Of a stretch of 64,000 bases of DNA, positions 1-11,200 are shown one piece after another. Position numbers and translations under genes: made by a program. The first letter of the stretch is position 1. Each line of letters starts with the position of its first letter. Under the pieces are notes generated by a model. That model made no database searches. It saw nothing but the letters and a program-made list of their open reading frames with translations, and was not told the origin of the DNA. This stretch comes from Mycobacterium mantenii (lineage in GTDB: Bacteria; Actinomycetota; Actinomycetes; Mycobacteriales; Mycobacteriaceae). The stretch covers positions 5,952,001 through 6,016,000 of the forward strand of contig NZ_AP022590.1 in assembly GCF_010731775.1 (NCBI RefSeq), read 5' to 3'.

Positions 1-218
1 CACACGCCCCACAGCTGTCCCGGCTCGGGCGGCTTGCCGCCCAGCTCATGCAGTATCGCGACGGCATCGACGTGCGCCTCGGCGACCCGGGCAGCGACGA
101 TGTTGTCTTCGGCCAGGTGGGCCAGCCGTTGCCAGCGCTCGGCGGTGCGCCCGGAGGCGGGTAGCGGAAGCTCGAGTCGTCCCGACTCCAGCCAGTGTTT
201 GACCAAACCCGCCGTCAC
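1..218 (-). CDS. Acyl-CoA dehydrogenase-like protein, N-terminal fragment (cut by window edge)
   Basis: Reading leftward from a GTG at 218, an open frame of about 72 codons runs off the left edge. The start shares bases with the stop of the upstream glycosyltransferase gene (GTGA overlap), so the two are translationally coupled. The visible N-terminus contains HWLESGRLELPLP and a helix-rich stretch (AEDNIVAARVAEAHVDA) like the start of the acyl-CoA dehydrogenase-like proteins that sit beside GT2 glycosyltransferases in actinobacteria. No catalytic residue is visible because the gene is cut, so the family call rests on the N-terminal sequence and the neighbour. The reading frame itself is well supported. 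Confidence 0.6.
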   Translation of the reverse strand, partial: MTAGLVKHWLESGRLELPLPASGRTAERWQRLAHLAEDNIVAARVAEAHVDAVAILHELGGKPPEPGQLWGV

Positions 219-940
219 GCGCAATCACCCGCCGCCGATCTCCCCAATTGCCTGAGGTGATGGGCGAATCCCATGGGCGCCCGGCCCTGGGTTCGCGCCG
301 AAGTGATCACCGACAATTCGGTGTCTCGATGTATGCGATAGCCGGCGTTTTCGAACCGCTCGACCAGATCGACATCCTCGCCCGTCGGCAAGGTGCGGAA
401 GCCGCCGACACGCCAGTACGCCCGGGCGCTGAAGCCCATGTTGGCGCCGTGGATGTGCTCGTGATCGTCGTGTCCATGTACGGGCTCCGCTTGGTAGCAA
501 CGCATATAGCGGTCGACTACGTCGGCGGTGTGGTGACGCCAGTCGGTGACGCGCACGACGCCCAGGACCATGTCCGCGCCCACCCCCAGCTGATGGACCA
601 GCCAGCCGGGGTCCACCCGACTGTCGGCGTCCGTGGTGGCAAACCAGCTTCTGCAGTCGTCGCCCAATAGTGATCGGGCGTAACCGAAACCGACGGCGCG
701 CGCCGTGCCGACGTTGTGCACGTCGACGCTGATGAAGTGCACATCGGGACCGTATTCACCGGCCAGCTCGTCGCTGCCGTCGTTGGAGTCGTCCAGCACC
801 GCGACGATGGTGACCGGAATCGGCGCACACAGTGCGGCGGTGAGAACCGCGCGCAGACAGGCCGGCAGCTTTGCCCGTTCGTTGTGGGCGGGGATCACTA
901 CGGCGGCAGCGTCATAGGCGCGTGGCGCGGCGGTTGACAT
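215..940 (-). CDS. Glycosyltransferase family 2
   Basis: A GT-A fold sugar transferase of about 241 residues. It opens with the nucleotide-binding strand PAHNERAKLPACL, followed by DDSNDGSDE. The metal-binding DxD motif appears as TTDADSRVDPGWL, then comes the acceptor-site stretch GANMGFSARAYWRVGGF and the catalytic-base region GEDVDLVERF. There is no signal peptide or membrane segment, so it should act in the cytoplasm. The ATG at 940 is preferred; six more codons are open upstream (to 958). It overlaps the next gene by GTGA and heads a short leftward operon. The donor and acceptor sugars cannot be told from the sequence. Confidence 0.85.
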   Translation of the reverse strand: MSTAAPRAYDAAAVVIPAHNERAKLPACLRAVLTAALCAPIPVTIVAVLDDSNDGSDELAGEYGPDVHFISVDVHNVGTARAVGFGYARSLLGDDCRSWFATTDADSRVDPGWLVHQLGVGADMVLGVVRVTDWRHHTADVVDRYMRCYQAEPVHGHDDHEHIHGANMGFSARAYWRVGGFRTLPTGEDVDLVERFENAGYRIHRDTELSVITSARTQGRAPMGFAHHLRQLGRSAAGDCA

Positions 941-985
941 AACCCCAGGATTTCCCAACTGGGCGTAAGTTAAACAGCCTTACCA

Positions 986-1023
986 CCCGTTTCAGGTGGC
1001 CCCGCCCGTTCCAGGTTGCCCCC
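986..1023. repeat. Tandem 19-bp imperfect direct repeat in a divergent promoter region
   Basis: Two adjacent 19-bp copies (986-1004 and 1005-1023) match at 16 of 19 positions and both contain CCCGTT.CAGGT.GCCCC. They lie in the 111-bp gap between the leftward glycosyltransferase and the rightward nucleotidyltransferase-fold gene, ending 28 bp before the latter's ATG. Such direct repeats may bind a regulator, but none is known here. Confidence 0.4.
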
Positions 1024-1051
1024 ACCGCAGGCCGGGTAAGACCTAGGCACC

Positions 1052-1627
1052 ATGGCAGCCACTGAAGCTCACACGGGCGCAACCGCGTGCACCACACCGT
1101 TACGCGACGCGCTGCGCGGCGCGGCGTCGGCACTCAAGGAGAACGGGCCACGCTTCGCCCTGGCCGGCAGCTACGCGTTATGGGCTTACGGCGCACCGGA
1201 ACCCAGCCACGATGTGGACCTGGTGGTGGCGGAGTCCGATGTAGAAGCGGCCGTGGCGACGCTGGCCGGCGCCGGGTTCGCCATCGAGCGCCCGCCGGAG
1301 GATTGGCTGTTCAAGGCCCGCAGGGCGGACGTGCTGGTCGACGTCCTGCACCGGCTCAACGGAGTGCCCGTCGATGCCGGGTTGCTGGACAAGGCCGAAC
1401 AGCACGACGTGTTGACCATCAGCATGCCGGTGCTGCCGCCCACCATGGTGCTCGTCCAGCAGCTGCGAGCGCTGAACGAGCATTACTGCGACTTCGCCAA
1501 GTTGCTGCCGGCCGTGCGCGCGGTGCGCGAACGGCTCGACTGGGAGGCCGTCACAGCGCTGACCGCCGACAACGATTACGCGGTCGCGTTTTTGGTGCTG
1601 GCCGACCGCCTCGGCCTGACCGGCTAG
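1052..1627 (+). CDS. Nucleotidyltransferase-fold hypothetical protein
   Basis: A 191-residue protein with the minimal nucleotidyltransferase signature: GSYALWAYG at residues 39-47, then DVDLVV with the acidic pair at Asp54 and Asp56. This layout (GS, about ten residues, DxD) is that of the MNT/NTP-transferase superfamily, which moves NMP to small molecules, RNA or protein. The rest is helical and without recognised domains. The ATG at 1052 is the first in frame. No HEPN partner gene is adjacent, so a MNT-HEPN toxin-antitoxin pair is not supported. Its stop overlaps the stop of the convergent gene at 1624-1627. The substrate is unknown. Confidence 0.7.
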   Translation: MAATEAHTGATACTTPLRDALRGAASALKENGPRFALAGSYALWAYGAPEPSHDVDLVVAESDVEAAVATLAGAGFAIERPPEDWLFKARRADVLVDVLHRLNGVPVDAGLLDKAEQHDVLTISMPVLPPTMVLVQQLRALNEHYCDFAKLLPAVRAVRERLDWEAVTALTADNDYAVAFLVLADRLGLTG

Positions 1628-1881
1628 TGATTACGCAGCTTGGCGACGAGCTTGTCTTTGGTCAGGCTCGAATAGCCGGACATGCCAAGCTCTTTGGCGC
1701 GCTTCCTGAGTTCTGGGACGGTCCAGTCCTGGTAAGACCCGGATTTGCCGCCCTTGCGGGCGACCGACGACTTACCCCGCCCGGCCGCCGCATTAGAAAT
1801 CCGCGCGGCCTTCTCTTTCGAGTCGCCCTGCTTGCGGAGGTCCTGGTACAGCTTTTCATTCTTGATCGACGAACGCGGCAT
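1624..1881 (-). CDS. Small SAP/Rho-N-like protein (DUF7218-type)
   Basis: An 85-residue basic protein rich in Lys, Arg and Ser. The C-terminal half (DWTVPELRKRAKELGMSGYS, then KDKLVAKLRNH) is a short helix-extended-helix motif of the type found in the Rho termination factor N-terminal and SAP families, which bind nucleic acid. The N-terminal half (SKEKAARISNAAAGRG) is typical of a widespread small actinobacterial family. A strong Shine-Dalgarno AGGAGG lies 8 bases before the ATG. A nucleic-acid-binding or stress-linked role beside the catalase is inference only. Confidence 0.75.
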   Translation of the reverse strand: MPRSSIKNEKLYQDLRKQGDSKEKAARISNAAAGRGKSSVARKGGKSGSYQDWTVPELRKRAKELGMSGYSSLTKDKLVAKLRNH

Positions 1882-1956
1882 GATTCATCCTCCTGTCCAC
1901 GATGAGCGTCCTAACTGTGCTGAATGCCCGCCCCGACCGCATCAAAAACCACGTCC

Positions 1957-4059
1957 TTAGGCCGGTATCGGGTCGGTGTGCCGCTCCCAGCAGCGGTGCC
2001 GGGCCAGCGCGGCGACGAATTCATCGACGAAGCGGTCCGGCAACTCGTCGGCAGCGGCCGTGGTGGTGATGACGGCCTGATCCTCGAGCACGTCGGTGTC
2101 CTCGGCCAGCCGATTGGTGATCCCCGCGGTGCGCAGCAGGTCGACGCCCGCCCCATAGGCACCGATGGGCTTCAGATGTTTGTAGGCCTCGGTGACGAAG
2201 TGCACGGCGTAGCCGTCGTTGGACAGCGTCGCTACGGAGCGCGGCCCGCACGCCACCACGACGGCGTCGTACAGCACCGAAGCCATCGTCGTGAACGATC
2301 GGTCGACGGCCAGCTCGCCGCCGGATCCACCGGCCAGGGTGCCGCCGGCGACCGGGGCCAAGACCTCGACCACCGCGCCGCGCTCGCCCAGCTGCCCGAT
2401 GAAGCGTTGGGTCCCCACCACGTCGACTCCGTCGGCGGCCAGCACGGCGATCTTGCGCGAGGCGATGGTGTCGCTGACACCGACTTGGGAGAGCGCCGGT
2501 GACGCGGCCACCCGATCGTCCACCGGCTCCTCGGGCGGGGTGGGCAGCCCCAGTTTCGCCGCCACCTGGCCGGCCAGCCCACCGTCGACGCGCGCGAGTT
2601 GTTCCACTACGGCCGAACGGATCTCGGGAACTTCGACCTTGCCCAGTTCGAAGGCGAACGCGGCGACGATGTGTTCGGCCTCGACCGGCGACATGCTCTG
2701 CCAGAACATGCGCGCCTGGCTGTAGTGATTCTCAAAGGACTTGGCGCGCTTGCGCATTGCCTGCCCATCCAGCCGCTCGGTGTAGTGGCGGAACACGTTC
2801 TCGTCGGCCAGTGCCGGGCAGCCGCCGCCGATGCTGTTCTTGGAGTAGCTGGTGCGGCCCTGCGGGATCGCGTGCTGTCCGTAACCGTCATGCTGGTTGG
2901 TGCGGACCTCGGCGACCGGCCGGTTGACCGGCAGCTGGGCGAAGTTGGGACCGCCCAGGCGGATCAGCTGAGTGTCCAGATAGGAGAAGTTGCGGAATTG
3001 CAGCAGCGGATCGTTCGTGAAATCGATGCCGGGCACCACGTTCGCTGTGTGGAACGCCACTTGCTCGGTCTCGGCGAAGAAGTTGTCCGGGTTGCGATTC
3101 AACACCATCTTGCCCACTGGCCGGACCGGAACCTGTTCCTCGGGAATGATTTTGGTCGCGTCGAGCAGGTCGAAATCGAACTTGAACTCGTCCTCCTCTG
3201 CGACCAGCTGCACGCCGAGCTCCCACTCCGGGTACTGGCCCGACTCGATCGCCTCCCATAGGTCGCGGCGGTTGTAATCGGGATCTTTGCCGGCGATCTT
3301 CTGGCATTCGTCCCAGATCAGCGAGTGCACGCCGAGCCGCGGCTTCCAGTGGAACTTCACGAAAGTTCCTTCACCGCTGCTGTTTACCAGCCGGAAGGTG
3401 TGCACGCCGAAACCTTGCATCATGCGGTAACTGCGCGGCAACGCCCGGTCCGACATCAGCCACATGATGGTGTGCAGGGTCTCGGGCTGCAGCGACACGA
3501 AGTCCCACAGCGTGTCGTGTGCCGACTGCGCCTGCGGAATCTCGTTGTGCGGCTCGGGTTTCACCGCGTGCACGAAGTCGGGGAACTTGATGCCGTCCTG
3601 GATGAAGAACACCGGGAAGTTGTTGCCCACCAGGTCGTAATTGCCTTGTTCGGTATAGAACTTGGTGGCAAAGCCGCGGACGTCGCGGACGGTGTCGGCC
3701 GATCCGCGTGACCCGGCCACCGTGGAGAACCGGACGAACACCGGAGTCTGAACACCCGGACTGATCAGGAATTTCGCCGCGGTATAGTCCGCCAGCCAGT
3801 CGTCATACGGCTCGAAATAGCCGTAGGCGCCGGCTCCGCGCGCGTGCACCACCCGCTCCGGAATGCGCTCGTGGTCGAAGTGAGTCATCTTCTCCCGGGC
3901 GTGGAAGTCCTCCAGCAGTGTGGGTCCCCGCTCGCCCGCCGTCAGCGAATCGTCGGTGTGGTGGACGCGAACGCCCTGTTGGGTGGTCAGGTATCCGGTG
4001 TCACGGCGGAACCGCGCCGGCTCCAGGTCGCGCTGTTTTGGATTCTGGTCTGTGGCCAT
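1957..4059 (-). CDS. katE: Large-subunit catalase (HPII type)
   Basis: Haem catalase that dismutates hydrogen peroxide to water and oxygen in the cytoplasm. About 700 residues from the ATG at 4059, the size of the large HPII clade rather than the 480-550 residues of small catalases. Seen: the distal His near residue 72 ([13 protein letters not shown]), the essential Asn region [11 protein letters not shown] near 146, and the proximal haem-ligand Tyr near 360 ([17 protein letters not shown]). A C-terminal flavodoxin/DJ-1-like domain follows from about 545 to the end ([16 protein letters not shown], and later [10 protein letters not shown]), as expected for HPII. A TTG 33 bp upstream (4092) is open, but its N-terminus looks non-coding. 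It is distinct from the bifunctional KatG. Confidence 0.95.
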
Positions 4060-4157
4060 GTCGTGTCGGGTACCACCGCCCGACCGGTGCAAACGGCACG
4101 GATGTGGCCCTATCCACCATGACGACGGTTGCCTACCGTTGACAGGGGTAGTCGAAA

Positions 4158-5174
4158 GTGGTGATCCAAACGGCAGAAGTCGGCGACCTTCGTGGCGTGG
4201 TAGCCATCGGTGCGTCGGCAGGCGGCGTCGAGGCGCTGTCGAATCTTGCCGCCGGGTTGTCGTCGGACGTGCCGTACGCCTATTTGATGGTGCTGCACGT
4301 GCCCGCCGGTGCGCCCAGCATCCTGGCTCGCATCATCGATCGCAGTGGTCCGCTGCCCGCGGTTGCCGCCCGAAACGGCATGCCGCTCGAACCCGGACAT
4401 ATCTACGTCGGTGTCCCGGACCGCCATCTGCTGGTCGCCGATCATCGCGTGCTGTTGTCGCAGGGGCCGACCGAGAACGGGCACCGGCCCGCGATCAACG
4501 CGTTGTTCCGATCGGTGGCATTGACTTTTGGCAGCCGCGGGATCGGCGTACTGCTCTCCGGCGTGCTGGACGACGGCGTGCTGGGCATGGCCGCGATCCG
4601 CTCGTGCGGGGGGACCACCATCGGCCAGTCACCCGAGGACGCGTTGTTCCCGGCGTTGCCCACCAATGCCGTCGACGCGGGCGTGGTGGATCGGCAGGCC
4701 GCGGCGGCCGACGTCGGCGCGGTCCTCAAAGAGTTGTCGCATCGAGAGATTGAGGATCCTGAAGTGGAGCGCGACGCCGCGATGGAACTGGAGAACCGCA
4801 TCGCCATGACCTCGAGGTTCTCGACTGACTTCGACACCCAACGACTGGGCGAACCGTCCGGCTATACCTGCCCGGATTGCAACGGCTCGCTGGTGTCCAT
4901 CGGCGAAAACAATTTTCGCTGCCACGTGGGCCATGCCTGGACGGCCGACGCCCTGCTCAGCGCCCGCGACGACGAGGTCGAGGGGGCGTTGTGCGTGGCG
5001 CTGCGCAGCCTGCGGGAAAAGGCCAGACTGGCCCGGGAGCTGGCCGGCAGAACCGAGCCCGGCCTGCTCTTTCGGCGCTACACCTCGATTGCCCAAGAGA
5101 CCGAGCAGACGCTGACGGTGCTCAGCGACCGGTTGTCCGCCACCGCCCCTCCCAGGGGTGAGCCCGATGGATGA
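4158..5174 (+). CDS. cheB: CheB-type protein-glutamate methylesterase, with zinc-ribbon-like tail
   Basis: CheB catalytic domain without a receiver domain. In chemotaxis CheB removes methyl groups from, or deamidates, receptor glutamates and glutamines. The serine-hydrolase triad is intact: Ser20 in GASAGG, His47 in VLHVP and Asp139 in LSGVLDDGVLG. After the core (about 13-195) comes CPDC at 238-241 and CHVGH at 255-259, which together look like a small zinc ribbon, then a helical tail. GTG starts at 4158 and 4161 are both possible. It overlaps the STAS/ATPase gene and leads the cluster. No methyl-accepting receptor is in the window, so the target is unknown; it may act on a non-classical partner. 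Confidence 0.88.
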   Translation: MVIQTAEVGDLRGVVAIGASAGGVEALSNLAAGLSSDVPYAYLMVLHVPAGAPSILARIIDRSGPLPAVAARNGMPLEPGHIYVGVPDRHLLVADHRVLLSQGPTENGHRPAINALFRSVALTFGSRGIGVLLSGVLDDGVLGMAAIRSCGGTTIGQSPEDALFPALPTNAVDAGVVDRQAAAADVGAVLKELSHREIEDPEVERDAAMELENRIAMTSRFSTDFDTQRLGEPSGYTCPDCNGSLVSIGENNFRCHVGHAWTADALLSARDDEVEGALCVALRSLREKARLARELAGRTEPGLLFRRYTSIAQETEQTLTVLSDRLSATAPPRGEPDG

Positions 5175-5925
5175 GCTCGATCCCGCTGTCGTGATCGACC
5201 TGGAAACGGATCGGGCCGTGCCGATTCTGACCGTGCGGGGCGTGCTCGACAGCTCGACCTATCGAACCGTCCGCGACACCGTCATCAAGGTCGCGATCGA
5301 CGAGCCCCGCGCGGTGATCGTCGATATCGACCGTCTGCACGCGCCATCCAGCTCGGCCTGGACGGTATTCACCAGCGCGCGCTGGCATGTCAGTGTGTGG
5401 CCCGACGTGCCCATCCTGTTGGTGTGCGCCCAGCCGCAGGTGCGGCGCGAAATCGCCGCGGCCGGCATCACCCGATACGTGCCGGTCCATTCCATCCGGG
5501 ACCTTGCGCTGGATGCCGTGCAAAACCAATCGCTGCAGGTCCGTCGGCGGGCACGCACCGACCTTGCGCGAAACATCAGCAGCCTGGACGTCGCGCGCGG
5601 TGTGATCGCCGACTGGCTCACCCAGTGGGACATCCGGGAGGTGATCCCGGTTGCGGAGACGGTGGCGACCGTGTTACTCGAGAACGTGCTCGACCACACC
5701 GAGAGCGCACCGGTGCTGATCGTCGAGAGCTATCAAGACGGTGTCACGGTCGCGGTCGAGGACAACAGCTCTCGTCTGCCGGGCCGGCACGAGGACGCCG
5801 ACCGCGGCGCTGACGTCGTTTCCGGGTTGGCCATCGTGTCCGCGCTGTGCCGGGTGTGGGGCGCCACTCCCACGTCGTCGGGTAAAACGGTGTGGGGATT
5901 GGTCGGGCGGGAAAACCGGTTCTGA
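5158..5925 (+). CDS. STAS plus HATPase (anti-sigma-like) signalling protein
   Basis: Two domains in about 255 residues. Residues 10-115 form a STAS domain as in anti-sigma-factor antagonists (AVIVDIDRLHAPSSSAW, the loop that carries the phosphorylatable Ser in SpoIIAA). Residues 130-255 resemble the GHKL ATPase fold of RsbW/SpoIIAB anti-sigma kinases: N-box ETVATVLLENVLDHT, then VAVEDNSSRLP, and the end motif GLAIVSALCRVWG..SSGKTVWGLV. A partner-switching regulator combining antagonist and kinase halves is inferred. The GTG at 5158 overlaps the end of cheB by 17 bp; an ATG at 5167 is the alternative. It is followed 55 bp later by the CheR-PAS gene. No sigma factor gene is adjacent. Confidence 0.82.
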   Translation: MSPMDELDPAVVIDLETDRAVPILTVRGVLDSSTYRTVRDTVIKVAIDEPRAVIVDIDRLHAPSSSAWTVFTSARWHVSVWPDVPILLVCAQPQVRREIAAAGITRYVPVHSIRDLALDAVQNQSLQVRRRARTDLARNISSLDVARGVIADWLTQWDIREVIPVAETVATVLLENVLDHTESAPVLIVESYQDGVTVAVEDNSSRLPGRHEDADRGADVVSGLAIVSALCRVWGATPTSSGKTVWGLVGRENRF

Positions 5926-5980
5926 CGCCGCGAGTAGTGTTCGAGTCCGCCGGGTGAACCCCATATCGGATGGGACTTGC

Positions 5981-7822
5981 ATGGACGTCACGACTGACGA
6001 GGCATTCGAGGCGCTGCTGCGCTATATGCGCGACTCCCGCGGCTTCGACTTCACCGGTTACAAGCGCACCTCCTTGATGCGCCGCGTCAGGCACCGGATG
6101 GATCAGGCGGGCTACGCCACGTTCGAGGAATACCTCGACTTCCTGCAGGCCAGTTCGGATGAATTCACCGCACTCTTCAACACCATCCTGATCAACGTCA
6201 CCTCATTCTTCCGCGACCCGGACGCCTGGGATTTCGTCAGGACCGAGGTCATTCCGCGGCTGCTGGCCGAGCGTGGGCCCGACGATCCGATCCGGGTGTG
6301 GAGCGCCGGCTGCGCCTCGGGGCAGGAGGCCTACACGCTGGCCATGCTGCTGGCCGAGGCGCTGGGCTTCGACGGGTTCCGGCAGCGGGTCAAGATCTAC
6401 GCCACTGATGTCGACGAGGACGCGCTCACCGAGGCGCGCGGCGCCACCTACGATGCCAAGGCGGTCGAATCCGTACCGCCGGACCTGTTGGCGCGCTACT
6501 TCGAACAGGTCAACGGCCGCTACAGTTTTCACAAAGACCTGCGGCGCGCGGTGATCTTCGGCCGCAACGACCTGGTCAAGGACGCGCCGATCTCGCGCGT
6601 CGATCTGCTGGTATGCCGCAACACCCTGATGTACCTCAACGCGGAGACGCAGCGAAGCGTGTTGGCGCGCCTGCATTTTGCGCTTGCGCCACAGGGGATC
6701 CTGTTCCTCGGTCACGCCGAGATGCTGGTGAGCCACGGCGACCGGTTCACGCCGCTGAACCTCAAACACCGAATCTTCCGCAAGGCGGCCGGGTCCCACG
6801 GCGGCGTGGATCGCTACGACCCGAATAGCGTGTTCTACGAACGCCACGCCGACCTGCCCGGCCTGACGACGGTGCGCGATCTGGCTTTCCGGGCCAGCCC
6901 GGTGGCGCAGATCGTGGTGTCCGGCGAGGACACCGTCGCGATGATCAACCAGCAGGCGGAGAGCATCTTCGGGCTCTCGGTGCGCGACATCGGCCGGCTG
7001 CTGCGCGATCTCGAGATCTCCTACCGCCCCGTCGAGCTGCGCGCCTACCTGGAGCAGGCCAAGGTGGAGCGGCGCTCCGCGCGGATCCAGGACGTCAAAT
7101 GGCAGCGGCCGGGTGCCGAGACGGTGTGGTTCGAGATCCACGTGAACCCGCTCGTCGACGCCGAGAACGGTCTGCTCGGCGTGTCGATCGTCTTCTTCGA
7201 CGTCACCGCGACGCGCGCGCTGCTGGACAAGGTCGTCCAGACCAACCGCCAGCTGGAGGCGGCCTACGAAGAGCTGCAATCCACGAACGAAGAACTCGAA
7301 ACCACCAACGAAGAACTGCAATCCACGGTGGAGGAGCTCGAGACCACGAATGAGGAACTGCAGTCCACCAACGAAGAACTCGAAACCATGAACGAGGAGC
7401 TGCATTCCACCAACGATGAACTGCACACCATCAATGACATGCTGCGCGATCGCAGCATGGAACTGGACGACGCGAAGAACTTCCTGGACTCGCTGACCGA
7501 CTCGATCGACATGGGCCTGATGGTGGTCGACCGGGAGATGAAGGTGATCCTGTGGAACCGGCGTTGCGAAGAGCTCTGGGGGCTGCGGGCCGACGAAACG
7601 ACCGGGTCGCGCCTGACCGCATTGGACATCGGCCTGCCGCTGGACGGCGTGCGGCCATTGATCGGCAACGCCTTCGTCGACCCCGAAAGCTCCGGTGAAG
7701 TGACGGTGGACGCTGTCAACCGGCGAGGCCGCCCAGCCCGGGTGCGGATCAGGTGCACGTCGTTCCGTTCGAGTGAGGGGACGGTGGCCGGGGCGCTGCT
7801 GCTGCTGGACGTCGTGGATTAG
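5981..7822 (+). CDS. cheR: CheR-type methyltransferase with PAS, coiled coil and second PAS
   Basis: A 613-residue hybrid. Residues 1-60 match the CheR N-terminal helical domain and about 60-285 the SAM-dependent methyltransferase (RVWSAGCASGQEAYT near 105-120, and DLLVCRNTLMYL). A PAS domain follows at about 296-411, then a long coiled coil at 416-490 built on EELxSTN/EELETTN heptads, then a second PAS at about 501-612. In many proteobacteria this CheR-PAS-coil block continues into a histidine kinase; here it stops after the second PAS. The ATG at 5981 is chosen because the CheR domain begins there, although the frame is open from 5741. Its stop overlaps that of the convergent second cheB. 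Confidence 0.9.
   Translation: MDVTTDEAFEALLRYMRDSRGFDFTGYKRTSLMRRVRHRMDQAGYATFEEYLDFLQASSDEFTALFNTILINVTSFFRDPDAWDFVRTEVIPRLLAERGPDDPIRVWSAGCASGQEAYTLAMLLAEALGFDGFRQRVKIYATDVDEDALTEARGATYDAKAVESVPPDLLARYFEQVNGRYSFHKDLRRAVIFGRNDLVKDAPISRVDLLVCRNTLMYLNAETQRSVLARLHFALAPQGILFLGHAEMLVSHGDRFTPLNLKHRIFRKAAGSHGGVDRYDPNSVFYERHADLPGLTTVRDLAFRASPVAQIVVSGEDTVAMINQQAESIFGLSVRDIGRLLRDLEISYRPVELRAYLEQAKVERRSARIQDVKWQRPGAETVWFEIHVNPLVDAENGLLGVSIVFFDVTATRALLDKVVQTNRQLEAAYEELQSTNEELETTNEELQSTVEELETTNEELQSTNEELETMNEELHSTNDELHTINDMLRDRSMELDDAKNFLDSLTDSIDMGLMVVDREMKVILWNRRCEELWGLRADETTGSRLTALDIGLPLDGVRPLIGNAFVDPESSGEVTVDAVNRRGRPARVRIRCTSFRSSEGTVAGALLLLDVVD
7268..7435 (+). repeat. Eight 21-bp heptad codon repeats inside cheR
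   Basis: Eight consecutive 7-codon units encode residues 430-485 of the CheR hybrid. They alternate EELQSTN and EELETTN with small changes (STV, TMN, HSTN, DELHTIN). The DNA units are close copies, so this is a 21/42-bp tandem repeat. It forms a charged coiled coil between the two PAS domains, a known feature of CheR-PAS hybrids that relays signals. Confidence 0.85.
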
Positions 7823-8730
7823 TCGCCGGCGGTCTCGCGGCGCGAGACGTGCCGGTCTCGCCGCGTGGATGCTTCCTCGGCCGCCTGATGCGCCAGTTGC
7901 GCGCGGTAGCGCGACTCCTCGGCTTTGCGTTGTGCCGCCGCCACCGTCTCTCGCGTGGCGCCGAATCCCACGCTCAGCTCCTGGCGCCGGCGTTCGAGTT
8001 CGGCCCCACGCAGGCGGGCGAGTTCGCCCCGCGCCTCGGCGCTGTTGGTCCGATATTTCGGCGACAGCTGGCCGAACATGTCGGACGCAGCGACGGCGGC
8101 ATCACCGTCGCCCGTCGGAACGGGTGCCAGCGACTCCCGCGGCTCGGGGAGTGGCGCCCCTGCGACAATGCCCGCCAGGACGGCGCCGATCTCGTCGATT
8201 CGCAACACCAGATCGGCGCCGGCGCGGGCGGCCGCGATCGGCATCGACGAGTATTGGGCGGTCTCCGGGCTTTCGGCGATGACGACGGCGCCGGCCCGCT
8301 TCATCGCGGCGGTGCCCGCCGCGCCGTCGTGCCCGGAACCCGAAAGCACCACGGCAACGCTTTTTGGCCCGTACGAGCTGGCGATGGAAGCCAACAGCCC
8401 GTCGAACACCTGCGCCCGATGCGCCGGGGCCTGGTGCAGGCGACAGCGTCCCTCCGAAGTCAGTTGCAGCAGCATCCCGGGGGGACATACGACGACCTGT
8501 CCGGATGCCAGCACGCTTCCGTCCTGCGCCCAAGCGACCGAGCGTCCCGTCTGCCTGCTCAGAATGGCGGGAAGCAGGCTGTAATGACCGCCCAGGTGCT
8601 GCTGCACGACGACTGCGGCCGGAAAGTCCGGGGGCAGATCCCGCAACACGGTCGACAGGGCCTCCAGGCCACCCGCCGACGCCAGCAGGGCCACCAACTG
8701 AACGCCCGGCCCGTGCCCGTCAGTCGCCAT
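7819..8730 (-). CDS. cheB: Second CheB-type methylesterase with C-terminal coiled-coil tail
   Basis: A 303-residue CheB catalytic domain, again without a receiver. The triad is present: Ser18 in LASAGG, His45 in VVQQHLGG and Asp135 in LSGSGHDGAAG. The last ~90 residues are strongly charged and helical (RGELARLRGAELERRRQEL, then AAQRKAEESRYRAQLAHQA), a likely coiled coil that could pair with the one in the CheR hybrid. It lacks the zinc-ribbon tail of the first CheB. The ATG at 8730 follows GGAGGA very closely; the frame stays open upstream to 8994, but that would run into the divergent GT4 gene. It converges on cheR with overlapping stops, so it closes the chemotaxis-like cluster from the other side. 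Confidence 0.85.
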   Translation of the reverse strand: MATDGHGPGVQLVALLASAGGLEALSTVLRDLPPDFPAAVVVQQHLGGHYSLLPAILSRQTGRSVAWAQDGSVLASGQVVVCPPGMLLQLTSEGRCRLHQAPAHRAQVFDGLLASIASSYGPKSVAVVLSGSGHDGAAGTAAMKRAGAVVIAESPETAQYSSMPIAAARAGADLVLRIDEIGAVLAGIVAGAPLPEPRESLAPVPTGDGDAAVAASDMFGQLSPKYRTNSAEARGELARLRGAELERRRQELSVGFGATRETVAAAQRKAEESRYRAQLAHQAAEEASTRRDRHVSRRETAGD

Positions 8731-8910
8731 TCCTCCAGTCTCCACCCTGGCGACCCACCGCACCACCACGTTTGGGCAGCTCGTCGAGGGTCCGCCAGGC
8801 GAATGCCGGGCCGGCATGCGAAGGTGCCCCCATGCCCGTTTCGCCCGTAGCGGCGAGGGTATGCCGTCTCGTATTGGTGGACGGACGAATGGCGCGCGGA
8901 GGGAATTGCA

Positions 8911-10077
8911 GTGAAAATTGCAATTGTCAGCGGCGATGACGTCAGAAGCGAGGATCCGGAGCGGTTGGGTGCCGCGCTGGCGGACCAGGGACATGACGCA
9001 ACGGTGTATCTTCGACGGGCTGGCGGGCGGCGTACCGAGACAGCCATTGATGGCTACCGGCGCGTGTCGATCCCCGTCGGCCCGCGGAAGGCCGCATCGT
9101 GGGCTGACGTCCTGCCATATGTGGGGGAGTGGGCCGCGAAACTCGACCGGATGTGGTCAACCGAGCAACCCGACGTGGTGCACGCTTACGGCTGGCTGGG
9201 CGGGTTGGCCGCGCAATTGGCCGCTCGCCGTCGGCGCATCCCCGTCGTGCAGACGTTCCACGGGCTGGCCGCTACATCGCGGGGCCATGCCGGCGCCGAA
9301 CACGAGACCGAACGCGAACGCCTCGAGTCGCTGCTGGCCCGCAGCGCGAGCTGGGTGACCGGCGAGAGCAGCGACGACGTCGACGCGCTGGCCCGACTGC
9401 GTCGCCGCCGGACACGAGTGTCCGCCTTGACGTGCGGTGTGGACGCCGAACGCTACACACCGACCGGTCCGACGGCATCGCGCAACGGCCCGCAGCGGAT
9501 TTTGTACGTGACTCCAAATCCGTTGTGGTGCAACGGCATCGATATTGCGATCCGCGCTTTACCCAAGGTGCATGGTGCGGAGCTGGTGGTTGCGGAGAAT
9601 GATGCCACGAACCAAGACCACGACGAAGCGCGAGCCCGGTTACGACATCTCGCTGCGGAGCTGGGTGTGGCCGATCGCGTCCGCTTTGACGGCACGGTCA
9701 CCGATGATGAACTGCCGAAGTTGATCCGGTCTGCCGACGTTATGGCGTTCACGCCTCGACAACCACCGCGGGCCGGCGCCGTATTGCAGGCAATGTCCAG
9801 TGGGGTGGTCGTGGTCGTGGCGAACGTGGGTGTGCTGGCCGACGTCGTACTCGACGACATCACCGGGCTGGTAGTTCCGCCGGAGAATCCGGCCGGCTTG
9901 GCCGCCGCGTTGAGAACGCTTCTCGCCCAGAGCTTCCAGCGACAGAGCATGGGTGCGGCGGGCCGCACTCGTGCGCAGTCGCGCTTCGCGTGGCAGCGGA
10001 TCGCGCACGACGCGCTGAACACTTACCGAAGCATCGGGTTGCACGATCGAGCGCCGATAGGTACGGCGGCGCGGTGA
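8911..10077 (+). CDS. Glycosyltransferase family 4-like protein
   Basis: A 388-residue GT-B fold protein. The N-terminal half has the GT4 start MKIAIVSGDDVRSEDPE and DVVHAYGWLGGLAA. The C-terminal half has the donor-binding region ILYVTPNPLWCNGIDIAI, FDGTVTDDELPKLIRSADV and GLVVPPENPAGLAAAL. The usual EX7E catalytic pair is not intact: in PRAGAVLQAMSSG the second Glu is Gln and the first is also missing. It may be inactive or use another residue. Start GTG 8911 follows GGAGGG by 8 bases. It is divergent from the second cheB (180-bp gap) and followed by an AraC regulator. The sugar and acceptor are unknown. Confidence 0.8.
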   Translation: MKIAIVSGDDVRSEDPERLGAALADQGHDATVYLRRAGGRRTETAIDGYRRVSIPVGPRKAASWADVLPYVGEWAAKLDRMWSTEQPDVVHAYGWLGGLAAQLAARRRRIPVVQTFHGLAATSRGHAGAEHETERERLESLLARSASWVTGESSDDVDALARLRRRRTRVSALTCGVDAERYTPTGPTASRNGPQRILYVTPNPLWCNGIDIAIRALPKVHGAELVVAENDATNQDHDEARARLRHLAAELGVADRVRFDGTVTDDELPKLIRSADVMAFTPRQPPRAGAVLQAMSSGVVVVVANVGVLADVVLDDITGLVVPPENPAGLAAALRTLLAQSFQRQSMGAAGRTRAQSRFAWQRIAHDALNTYRSIGLHDRAPIGTAAR

Positions 10078-10111
10078 TGTGGGCGCCTGTGGTATCGCCC
10101 CTGGGTCGGCC

Positions 10112-11200
10112 ATGACCACCGTAACGAGCGGGATCGACGACAGTCGCCAAGAGCTGAGGATCGGTCGTGTCGGCGAGGCGCCCGCGGCGACGCGGCCCGA
10201 CTACTGCCCGGCCGGTCCTGCGCTCGGATCGGATTCTGTGGTACGTCCGGTTACAGTGCAATACAAGCAGTTCCGCTCCGTCGATCCGCAGACCGCGCGG
10301 CGATTCTTCGCCGGCGCCTACCAACCGGGCTGGCAAATTTCTGGTCTTGCCAGTCACTGCGCGGTGTCACACCGGCGCAGTGACGCCGGTTCGATGACGG
10401 TCGACGAGGTGATGATCCGGGGGCGGGCGACGCTCGAAATCCCGGCGACCGACACCATCGTGGTGGTCCAGCCCCGGGCGGGATCGTTGAGTGTCGCCGG
10501 CGGCCCCGTGGCGACCGCGGACTTCCCGATTCTCATCGCCCATGGCATGCCCTGCGGATTGAACTGCAACGGTGCACGTTTCGATGTGGTGACCGTCGAG
10601 GCTGACGTGCTGCACAAAGTCGCCGCGGACTGGCACACGTCGTTGGCGCAACGAACCCAATTCGTGAATTGGCGGCCGCGGTCCCTGGCCGCGGTGCAGG
10701 CGTGGCATCGAGCGCTGGACTATGTGGTGGCGACGTTGGCAGCCGCCGACACCGCCCAGCAACCGCTGATCACCGCGGGGATGGCCAGCCTGCTGGCCGG
10801 TGCGCTGCTCGAGTGCTACCCGTCCAACCTGACCAGGAACGACCCGGCCAGCGACCTTGCGTTGCCTGAATCGCTCAAGGAGGCGGTGTCGTTCATCCAC
10901 CGTCACACCACCGAGGACATCGGCATCAACGACGTGGCAGCCGCGGTGCACCTGACGCCCAGGGCCATCCAGTACTTATTCCGCCGGCAGCTCGACACGA
11001 CCCCGACGGAGTACATGCGTCGCGTCCGGCTCGGCCGCGCGCATCAAGACCTGGTGGCAGCAACCACCGCTACCTCTACCGTCACCGAAATCGCCCAGCG
11101 GTGGGGGTTCGCGCACACCGGACGGTTCGCCGTGCTCTATCGGCAGACCTACGGCGAAAGCCCGCACACCACACTGAGGCAACAGGTCTCGCCGTCCTGA
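10112..11200 (+). CDS. AraC family transcriptional regulator
   Basis: A 362-residue regulator. Residues 50-220 form a cupin-like AraC-type sensor domain (the QYKQFRSVDPQTARRFF region to VVTVEADVLHKVA). The C-terminal ~100 residues hold the double helix-turn-helix: DIGINDVAAAVHLTPRAIQYLF for the first helix pair and STVTEIAQRWGFAHTGRFA for the second, ending GESPHTTLRQQ, all classic AraC/XylS positions. The ATG at 10112 is taken as the start; a GTG at 10079 is also open. It lies 34 bp after the GT4 gene and converges on the Tat-exported amine oxidase. Its regulon and inducer are unknown. Confidence 0.88.
   Translation: MTTVTSGIDDSRQELRIGRVGEAPAATRPDYCPAGPALGSDSVVRPVTVQYKQFRSVDPQTARRFFAGAYQPGWQISGLASHCAVSHRRSDAGSMTVDEVMIRGRATLEIPATDTIVVVQPRAGSLSVAGGPVATADFPILIAHGMPCGLNCNGARFDVVTVEADVLHKVAADWHTSLAQRTQFVNWRPRSLAAVQAWHRALDYVVATLAAADTAQQPLITAGMASLLAGALLECYPSNLTRNDPASDLALPESLKEAVSFIHRHTTEDIGINDVAAAVHLTPRAIQYLFRRQLDTTPTEYMRRVRLGRAHQDLVAATTATSTVTEIAQRWGFAHTGRFAVLYRQTYGESPHTTLRQQVSPS

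Follow-up and report, generated by a model that had tools for sequence, protein, structure and literature searches.

A conserved CheB, STAS-HATPase and CheR-PAS gene unit in Mycobacterium and its possible attachment to a SigF/SigB-type partner switch

The 64,000-nucleotide stretch of the Mycobacterium mantenii genome analysed here (contig NZ_AP022590.1, positions 5,952,001 to 6,016,000; hereafter the window) carries a group of genes for two receiver-less CheB methylesterases (CheB1 and CheB2), a protein in which a STAS and an RsbW-like HATPase half are fused (STAS-HATPase), and a CheR methyltransferase fused to two PAS domains (CheR-PAS). CheB, STAS-HATPase and CheR-PAS form a conserved unit, a conclusion on which our data leave us very little doubt, and we regard as an evenly balanced proposition that this unit is a stress-response module in which carboxyl methylation of the chemotaxis type is attached to a SigF/SigB-type partner switch. 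The initial annotation of this DNA, made from the sequence alone, had named the same four genes within 4.6 kb, and the open reading frames (ORFs) at 4158-8730 and their Pfam domains agree with it. The module comprises the following elements.

4127..4151, forward strand: putative SigF/SigB-type box GGTT-N15-GGGTAG, ending 6 nt 5' of the CheB1 GTG
4158..5174, forward strand: CheB1, a receiver-less CheB methylesterase with a GTG start and a C-terminal extension containing Cys and His
5158..5925, forward strand: STAS-HATPase fusion (RsbV-like and RsbW-like halves), with a 17-nt overlap with CheB1
5194..5490, forward strand: STAS domain, residues 13-111 of STAS-HATPase
5578..5904, forward strand: HATPase domain, approximately residues 141-249 of STAS-HATPase
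5981..7822, forward strand: CheR-PAS, in which CheR is fused to a PAS domain, a 99-residue helix and a second PAS domain
7205..7501, forward strand: coil of CheR-PAS, residues 409-507, with heptads N-E-E-L-x-[ST]-T
7819..8730, reverse strand: CheB2, a second receiver-less CheB, convergent with CheR-PAS, whose stop it overlaps by 4 nt

In its database form (P0001), STAS-HATPase has 252 amino acids, which would place its start at the ATG at 5167. The genome to which the window belongs is complete (6,185,541 bp), and a genome-wide search found two CheB and one CheR in it. Going by the names of database proteins, its closest relatives centre on M. mantenii and M. colombiense. The absence of methyl-accepting chemotaxis proteins (MCPs) and of CheA, first remarked for the window, extends to this whole genome, where both the MCP signalling domain (MCPsignal, PF00015) and the CheA dimerisation domain (PF02895) gave 0 matches, CheW and CheY not having been searched for genome-wide. 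It is near certain that the four genes are present and that MCP and CheA are absent from this genome; a linked MCP/CheA system, the finding that was to speak against the original proposal, did not emerge, and a hidden chemotaxis system was rejected on the same genome-wide searches. The locus thus shares CheR and CheB with the classical chemosensory system and differs from it in having no MCP or CheA in its genome. Among the 198 Mycobacterium genomes searched, MCPsignal exceeded the cut-off in one, and one more match was sub-cut-off. That sole genome over the cut-off (locus L211, contig G032:C45; loci carry L numbers and genomes G numbers) has, on the same contig as the MCP, CheB and CheR genes unlike those of the window, possibly contamination in a 400-contig assembly. 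A Pfam scan of the nine proteins encoded at 218-11197 of the window found no histidine kinase, no genome-wide RsbK search having been made.

The conservation of the unit rests chiefly on linkage. STAS-HATPase matches were obtained in 113 of the 198 Mycobacterium genomes. Of the 66 CheR matches of at least 158 bits, 57 follow a same-strand STAS-HATPase at a match-to-match distance of 262-306 bp, and with distance and strand so constant the arrangement is not due to chance; 6 further of the 66 lie within 20 kb of a STAS-HATPase. A STAS-HATPase of at least 46% identity is present in 63 of the 66 CheR genomes and in 31 of the 132 others, the CheR set for this comparison being counted without G032 and with G031 added by hand. 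The genomes are related, so that such counts are not independent events. Among the matches listed for the adjacency analysis, 150 STAS places fall in 111 of the 113 positive genomes and 90 CheR places score from 191.7 to 62 bits, weaker CheR matches (mostly about 23 bits) and some pieces of broken genes (G031, G089, G172) being omitted. The gene order suggested by the initial annotation, CheB-STAS/HATPase-CheR-PAS-CheB, is borne out for the STAS-HATPase/CheR linkage; the final CheB is another matter, CheB2 being an accessory gene that some but not all Mycobacterium loci have after CheR. In a scan of named genomes, limited to the best 80 of at least 575 confirmed CheR loci, STAS-HATPase was found near CheR in 76, the four loci without it being L158, whose contig begins inside CheR, L136, L138 and L139.

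The order of the genes is not rigid. The trio is linked and partly reshuffled in Gordonia (CheR, STAS-HATPase, then a convergent CheB), Rhodococcus (CheB divergent, STAS-HATPase convergent), Prauserella and Saccharothrix, and in M. austroafricanum and M. sediminis order or strand is altered with the three genes still neighbours. A linkage kept through rearrangement is good evidence of shared function. The module is not special to the window mycobacterium: of 396 Mycobacterium genomes sampled, 136 yielded a CheR-PAS, M. smegmatis has one (P0238), and the trio occurs in two genomes that are 95-96% identical to it in CheR-PAS (L037, L212). Recent horizontal acquisition was considered and rejected, as guanine-plus-cytosine content is the same in the locus and the window and the trio is widespread. 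In Prauserella and Gordonia loci a free-standing STAS gene also lies directly beside CheR, in addition to STAS-HATPase (L155, 11872-12300; L149, 9325-9873).

The association reaches beyond the class of the window organism. A search of 396 Actinomycetota genomes found a CheR-PAS-coil-PAS protein of about 600 amino acids in eleven genomes outside that class; ten have it in one piece, with 47-54% identity (L200, genome G518, has one in-frame stop in CheR), and the eleventh, G446, in which it is split over two contigs, was left out. A CheB match adjoins CheR in all ten of these deep loci. In L196 and L200, CheB, CheR, a SpoIIE-HATPase_c_2 gene (PAS included; weak in L200) and STAS follow one another on a single strand; L193 combines a STAS gene with a HATPase_c_2 gene on the opposite strand; L195 and L197 encode a STAS-GAF-ANTAR protein (STAS sub-cut-off in L197), with HATPase_c_2 also in L197; and L199 and L202 have a STAS gene. 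A Pfam STAS match at E <= 1e-3 lies within 4 kb of CheR in six of the ten genomes against 0.25 expected, each genome holding 2-20 STAS matches in all, and MCPs are absent from seven of the ten. The STAS profile used for the deep loci was seeded with some of the proteins then found, and the Pfam scans provide an independent check; in those scans the STAS of L197 and the HATPase halves of L155 and L157 remained below curated cut-offs. Since the deep loci often pair CheB/CheR-PAS with STAS, RsbW-like HATPase or SpoIIE-HATPase genes, the link with partner switching seems to be ancient in Actinomycetota, and the fusion seen in mycobacteria would be one version of it.

The box upstream of CheB1 is, quite probably, a SigF/SigB-type promoter. 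Of 92 distinct sequences upstream of CheB1, 76 contain the pattern GTT-N15-17-GGGTA; once the set is thinned at 80% CheB1 identity the count is 40 of 54, compared to 421 of 40,000 stretches of 160 bp drawn at random from these loci (1.05%). Counted over the named loci, it precedes 35 of 40 CheB1 genes and 31 of 39 copies of the adjoining glycosyltransferase gene, and none of the 38 STAS-HATPase, 74 CheR and 6 AraC genes. When spacings of 8-25 were compared, counts above 2 were reached at just two of them, N15 (74 loci) and N16 (20 loci), duplicate genomes included. In 69 of 74 cases no more than 5-12 nt separate the box from the first in-frame start codon, as would be expected of a leaderless transcript, and the CheB1 transcript is likely to be of this kind. 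A box before CheB2 was rejected, with 0 of 26 upstream regions positive and 4 of 27 under a looser pattern, in a set from which CheB1 matches were not excluded. Published SigF consensus sequences read GGWWT-N16-17-GGGTAY (PMC7693655) and GTTT-N14-19-GGGTA (PMC4694148); the GTTT-N15-GGGTA box of the window glycosyltransferase matches consensus, the CheB1 box is near-consensus, and the CheB1 gene of L212, a genome whose CheR places it near M. smegmatis, is preceded by GGTTT-N15-GGGTAA, again in agreement with consensus. In the window, the expected number of GGTT-N15/16-GGGTA matches has a mean of 0.21. An exact box of this form is also present at 1014-1038 (forward strand), 13 nt 5' of an ORF at 1052-1627 with a weak nucleotidyltransferase match. 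The genes flanking the module and the second box are listed below.

8838..8861, forward strand: predicted SigF-type box GTTT-N15-GGGTA, preceding the glycosyltransferase gene
8911..10077, forward strand: glycosyltransferase with its own SigF-type box, a syntenic neighbour that we do not put forward as a component of the switch
1957..4092, reverse strand: long catalase (KatE-like), a divergent neighbour, with synteny in many relatives

The divergent catalase is fragmentary or partly deleted in L006/L052, L079, L101, L105 and L109, and the adjoining che module looks intact in most of these five.

Where our results part from the initial annotation is in the role of STAS-HATPase, which had been taken for the kinase of the module. 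Both folds are those of SpoIIAA-SpoIIAB and RsbV-RsbW of Bacillus. Pfam recognises the STAS half with 37 bits; for the ATPase half its match is weak (HATPase_c, 14.7 bits, under the cut-off), and support comes from an AlphaFold2 model (mean predicted local distance difference test score, pLDDT, 88.8; predicted template modelling score, pTM, 0.58; 60-row alignment), for which Foldseek returned SpoIIAA/RsfB and SpoIIAB chains among the top matches, the latter being 1th8_A and 1l0o_A with a template modelling score by target of about 0.7. The ATP-pocket residues N176, D202, G223-L224 and G242-K243 are kept in the window protein, and N176, D202, L224, G242, K243 and W246 are invariant or missing in one row of a 133-row alignment (which includes paralogues, the distant proteins L057 and L067, and repeat copies of some genomes), so that nucleotide binding is likely. 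Catalysis is a different matter. Four residues before the N-box Asn (position N-4), where RsbW/SpoIIAB kinases carry a Glu that we take to be catalytic, the 133 rows have Val in 100, Ala in 13, Thr in 8, Glu in 5, Ile in 4 and Ser in 3, the window protein having Val172. The five rows with Glu are M. canariasense (L122), Prauserella, Saccharothrix, L057 and L067, four of them non-mycobacterial; the residue is lost in nearly all mycobacterial rows and also in Gordonia and Rhodococcus, and is present in all 13 RsbW-like actinobacterial comparators aligned (L058-L075). Ser65 of the STAS half aligns with the Ser of SpoIIAA that is presumably its phosphorylated residue, and the eight commonest residues of this column are Ala (46), Glu (28), Pro (18), Ser (14), Asp (7), Gly (6), Gln (6) and Thr (3). 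As the N-4 Glu is missing and the phospho-Ser is not conserved, the mycobacterial STAS-HATPase is probably not a kinase, and in these two respects, as well as in the fusion of both halves in one chain, it differs from the Bacillus proteins. In the deep relatives, three separate STAS proteins have a DSSG motif (L193, L196, L202) and others DSAG, DSGG or DGAG. The series from separate canonical parts to a fusion with Glu and then to a fusion without it suggests that catalysis was lost within the lineage.

The SigF system of M. smegmatis (SigF, RsbW1, RsbW2, RsbW3, RsfA, RsfB) offers a parallel, having RsbW-like and STAS parts and kinase-negative RsbW homologues: RsbW1 is an anti-SigF factor, RsbW3 an antagonist that pairs with RsbW1 as a decoy, and RsfB is phosphorylated by RsbW2 only, RsbW1 and RsbW3 being kinase-negative (PMC7693655). 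Identity of STAS-HATPase with RsbW3 was nevertheless rejected, since RsbW3 has 194 amino acids with a 30-residue N-terminal extension (PMC7693655) and no STAS half, whereas the window protein is a STAS-HATPase fusion. Neither CheR nor CheB is mentioned in the main text of PMC7693655. STAS-HATPase paralogues at about 41-45% identity are present in many relatives, and the window genome has one at 41% identity in an unrelated context (L033, 8018-8761; G000:C1:5624023-5624751); with no che match around it, this second copy was rejected as part of the module. Two sigma factors of the SigBFG family exceed the cut-off in the same genome. A STAS match (G000:C1:3227690-3228688) adjoins one of them (in L213) and is possibly its antagonist.

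The two CheB proteins score 163 and 152 bits against CheB_methylest of Pfam, and alignment to a solved CheB (PDB 6ymz) places Ser, His and Asp of CheB1 at the positions that we take for the catalytic triad; in CheB2 Ser and Asp are kept and the His is one position off in the alignment. CheR-PAS contains CheR (183 bits), CheR_N (57 bits) and two PAS stretches, and its catalytic domain aligns along its length with solved CheR proteins. As was originally described, the chain has no histidine kinase part and ends after the second PAS. It shares the CheR-PAS-coil block, with the same kind of coil repeats, with CheB/CheR-PAS hybrids that run into a histidine kinase (L203 and L204), whose ORFs however extend to 1257 and 1402 amino acids, the kinase part being assumed.

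The coil of CheR-PAS, residues 409-507, is predicted as a single helix by the structural model (mean pLDDT 84.8, pTM 0.44; 29-row alignment). Across 84 CheR-PAS sequences, nearly all from Mycobacterium, mean column identity is 0.946 for the coil, 0.908 for the first PAS, 0.874 for CheR and 0.756 for the second PAS, so that the coil is the most conserved part, surface heptad positions included (register assigned by eye). Its heptad N-E-E-L-x-[ST]-T has the EE pair and the small residues in the same relative places as Tsr, and the pattern [ASTG][ASTG]x[EQ][EQ]xx[ASTG][ASTG], which in Tsr occurs only at 300 and 307, presumably the methylation region of that receptor, occurs in the coil at 427, 434, 441, 448 and 455. 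The coil thus carries the same consensus at the same 7-residue spacing as the methylation helices of MCPs, in a genome that has neither an MCP signalling domain nor CheA. Every one of the 93 ORFs recognised as CheR-PAS contains a run of at least two such matches at 7-residue spacing, as do 10 of the 2,300 remaining ORFs (ORFs of at least 150 amino acids passing a codon-composition filter, loci L033-L052, L079-L158 and L193-L212), the coil repeat being internal so that matches are not independent events. By locus, size and matched sequence, these ten are CheR proteins missed by the filter, CheR fragments (L038, L200) and the CheB/CheR hybrids L203 and L204. That CheR methylates the coil is a possibility suggested by this resemblance, and one that we hold as doubtful.

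A mechanism may be sketched from these elements. The PAS-coil-PAS part would act as a soluble sensor; CheR would add, and CheB remove, methyl esters on glutamates, most likely those of the coil; and the methylation state would set the binding of the sensor to STAS-HATPase. The latter would bind ATP without phosphorylating and, in the manner of the kinase-negative RsbW1 and RsbW3 of M. smegmatis, be either an anti-sigma factor or a decoy that engages the RsbW/RsbV proteins of SigF, and the SigF/SigB-type box on the operon would close a feedback loop. In its most specific form, CheR-PAS-coil-PAS would be a one-piece soluble receptor with its own methyltransferase and an MCP-like helix, on whose EE pairs CheR writes and the two CheB erase esters, giving an adaptation memory like that of chemotaxis, with the kinase-less STAS-HATPase as an output that tunes a SigF-type sigma factor from whose promoter the operon would itself be transcribed; this detailed version is tentative, and we judge it somewhat unlikely to be right in every part. 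That the module acts on a sigma-factor switch in some manner has a slightly better than even chance. The chemotaxis-derived partner switch of the initial annotation stands in part, supported by a conserved unit without MCP or CheA, by the partner-switch neighbours in deep lineages and by the SigF/SigB-type box, and gives way in the kinase role assigned to STAS-HATPase.

Loss of genes in relatives bears on how the parts relate to each other. In L012, L013 and L023, STAS-HATPase is kept between the glycosyltransferase and catalase genes with CheB1 and CheR missing; wider stretches of two such genomes (L049, L050) agree with a loss of CheB1/CheR, and a CheR match is entirely absent from G046 and G048. 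The promoter box is retained upstream in L013 and L023 and was not seen in L012. This pattern fits STAS-HATPase being the output end of the module and CheR/CheB a tuning layer.

Several observations weigh against a methylation-tuned SigF switch and need to be acknowledged. In species without CheB1/CheR, STAS-HATPase is under purifying selection (ratio of nonsynonymous to synonymous substitution rates 0.23-0.35), and its persistence alone means that the coupling is not obligate. Conversely, CheR occurs without STAS-HATPase in L138 and L139, both with ample flank, and in L136, whose flanks span 2.0 kb upstream and 0.7 kb downstream. Among the deep loci, a HisKA histidine kinase takes the place of these genes in L198, the sole STAS of L194 is about 7 kb away, and L201 gave no STAS or HATPase match. 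As for the promoter, 16 of the 92 CheB1 upstream sequences do not have even a loose box (several of these show a variant first box followed by GGGTA), and the CheB1 box, with its shorter spacer, deviates from GGWWT-N16-17-GGGTAY in the fifth base as well. A study of an M. smegmatis sigF mutant (PMC4694148) names neither CheR nor CheB nor chemotaxis anywhere in its main text or the gene table there. Finally, the coil glutamates may only serve coiled-coil packing.

Among the explanations that compete with such a switch, one is that STAS-HATPase unites a functional kinase and its antagonist in a single chain, with an ATPase half that phosphorylates a STAS partner and a kinase activity that CheR and CheB regulate. 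Both folds are right for this, N176, D202 and the glycine boxes are kept, and Prauserella, Saccharothrix and one Mycobacterium locus (L122) do have Glu at N-4; with one of V, A, T, I or S there in 128 of 133 rows, Ser or Thr at the SpoIIAA phospho-Ser position in only 14 and three rows, respectively, and kinase-negative RsbW homologues reported in M. smegmatis (PMC7693655), we find it quite unlikely. CheR and CheB might instead methylate an unrelated client elsewhere, their linkage to STAS-HATPase reflecting shared SigF control rather than one pathway, which would agree with a report of PhoP methylation by Salmonella CheR (PMC8546571), with the survival of STAS-HATPase alone in some species and with the SigF-type box of the adjoining glycosyltransferase. 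This we also consider unlikely, although not negligible, given that the linkage outlasts changes in gene order and different partner-switch genes in distant lineages while flanking genes vary. A chemotaxis vestige under decay and with no present function would explain why CheR is in two pieces in G031, G085, G103, G622 and G693 and why CheB1 or CheR is fragmentary or missing in L006, L026, L012, L013 and L023, but is hardly credible when 136 of 396 Mycobacterium genomes have CheR-PAS, its sequence is so well conserved (0.95 in the coil and 0.87 in CheR) and the promoter box is kept.

Our search for a published description of a CheB/STAS-HATPase/CheR-PAS module found none, judging from titles and the openings of abstracts. 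Control of a sigma-B partner switch by a CheR protein already has a precedent in the RsbK-RsbM-RsbY system of Bacillus cereus. RsbM is a CheR-type methyltransferase and is not known to carry PAS-coil-PAS. The likeness to the window locus lies in a CheR-type methyltransferase tied to partner-switch genes; the window locus, however, has no adjacent hybrid kinase and does have two CheB and a STAS-HATPase fusion. RsbKMY acts with RsbV and RsbW in the sigma-B/SigF partner switch, and rsbK together with rsbM was reported in 17 of 244 mycobacteria, with rsbM but no rsbK in others, including M. austroafricanum (PMC8115616). In five Mycobacterium genomes (L206-L210) we found a locus in which an ORF of about 1160-1230 amino acids is accompanied by a short CheR and by a CheB-like ORF that is also short. 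The assignment follows from the size and order of the genes, the CheB-like ORF being recognised by a tblastn match in L206 and L207 and by eye in L208-L210. This locus is distinct from the window module and fits the reported rsbK-rsbM better. CheR matches of about 120-140 bits were rejected as module members, the five examined being those of this different locus type. The passages of PMC8115616 on rsbK and rsbM that we consulted make no mention of a CheB, and a CheB-like ORF does stand beside the short CheR of L206-L210. The M. austroafricanum locus L134 carries the window module, and the orphan rsbM of this species may therefore be CheR-PAS. The same two facts, orphan rsbM in several mycobacteria (PMC8115616) and the module in L134, could be taken to mean that the module is a mycobacterial branch of the RsbK-RsbM route, with its CheR protein acting on a distant hybrid kinase that controls SigF, yet the better fit of the separate L206-L210 locus and the fact that the single CheR of the window genome is the PAS-fused one make this very improbable.

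The routes by which SigF is activated in many mycobacteria are still to be identified (PMC8115616), and the module described here is a concrete candidate for one of them, as well as a possible identity for at least one orphan rsbM, that of M. austroafricanum. The SigF/SigB-type box predicted before CheB, the loss of Glu and phospho-Ser in STAS-HATPase and the MCP-like consensus recurring every 7 residues of the coil are, in this regard, the new elements contributed by our analysis. If the proposed methylation-tuned switch is true, it would represent chemotaxis-style adaptation that tunes gene expression without receptors, CheA or motility, and the chemotaxis chemistry of a mycobacterium that does not swim has probably been reused to tune its stress response.

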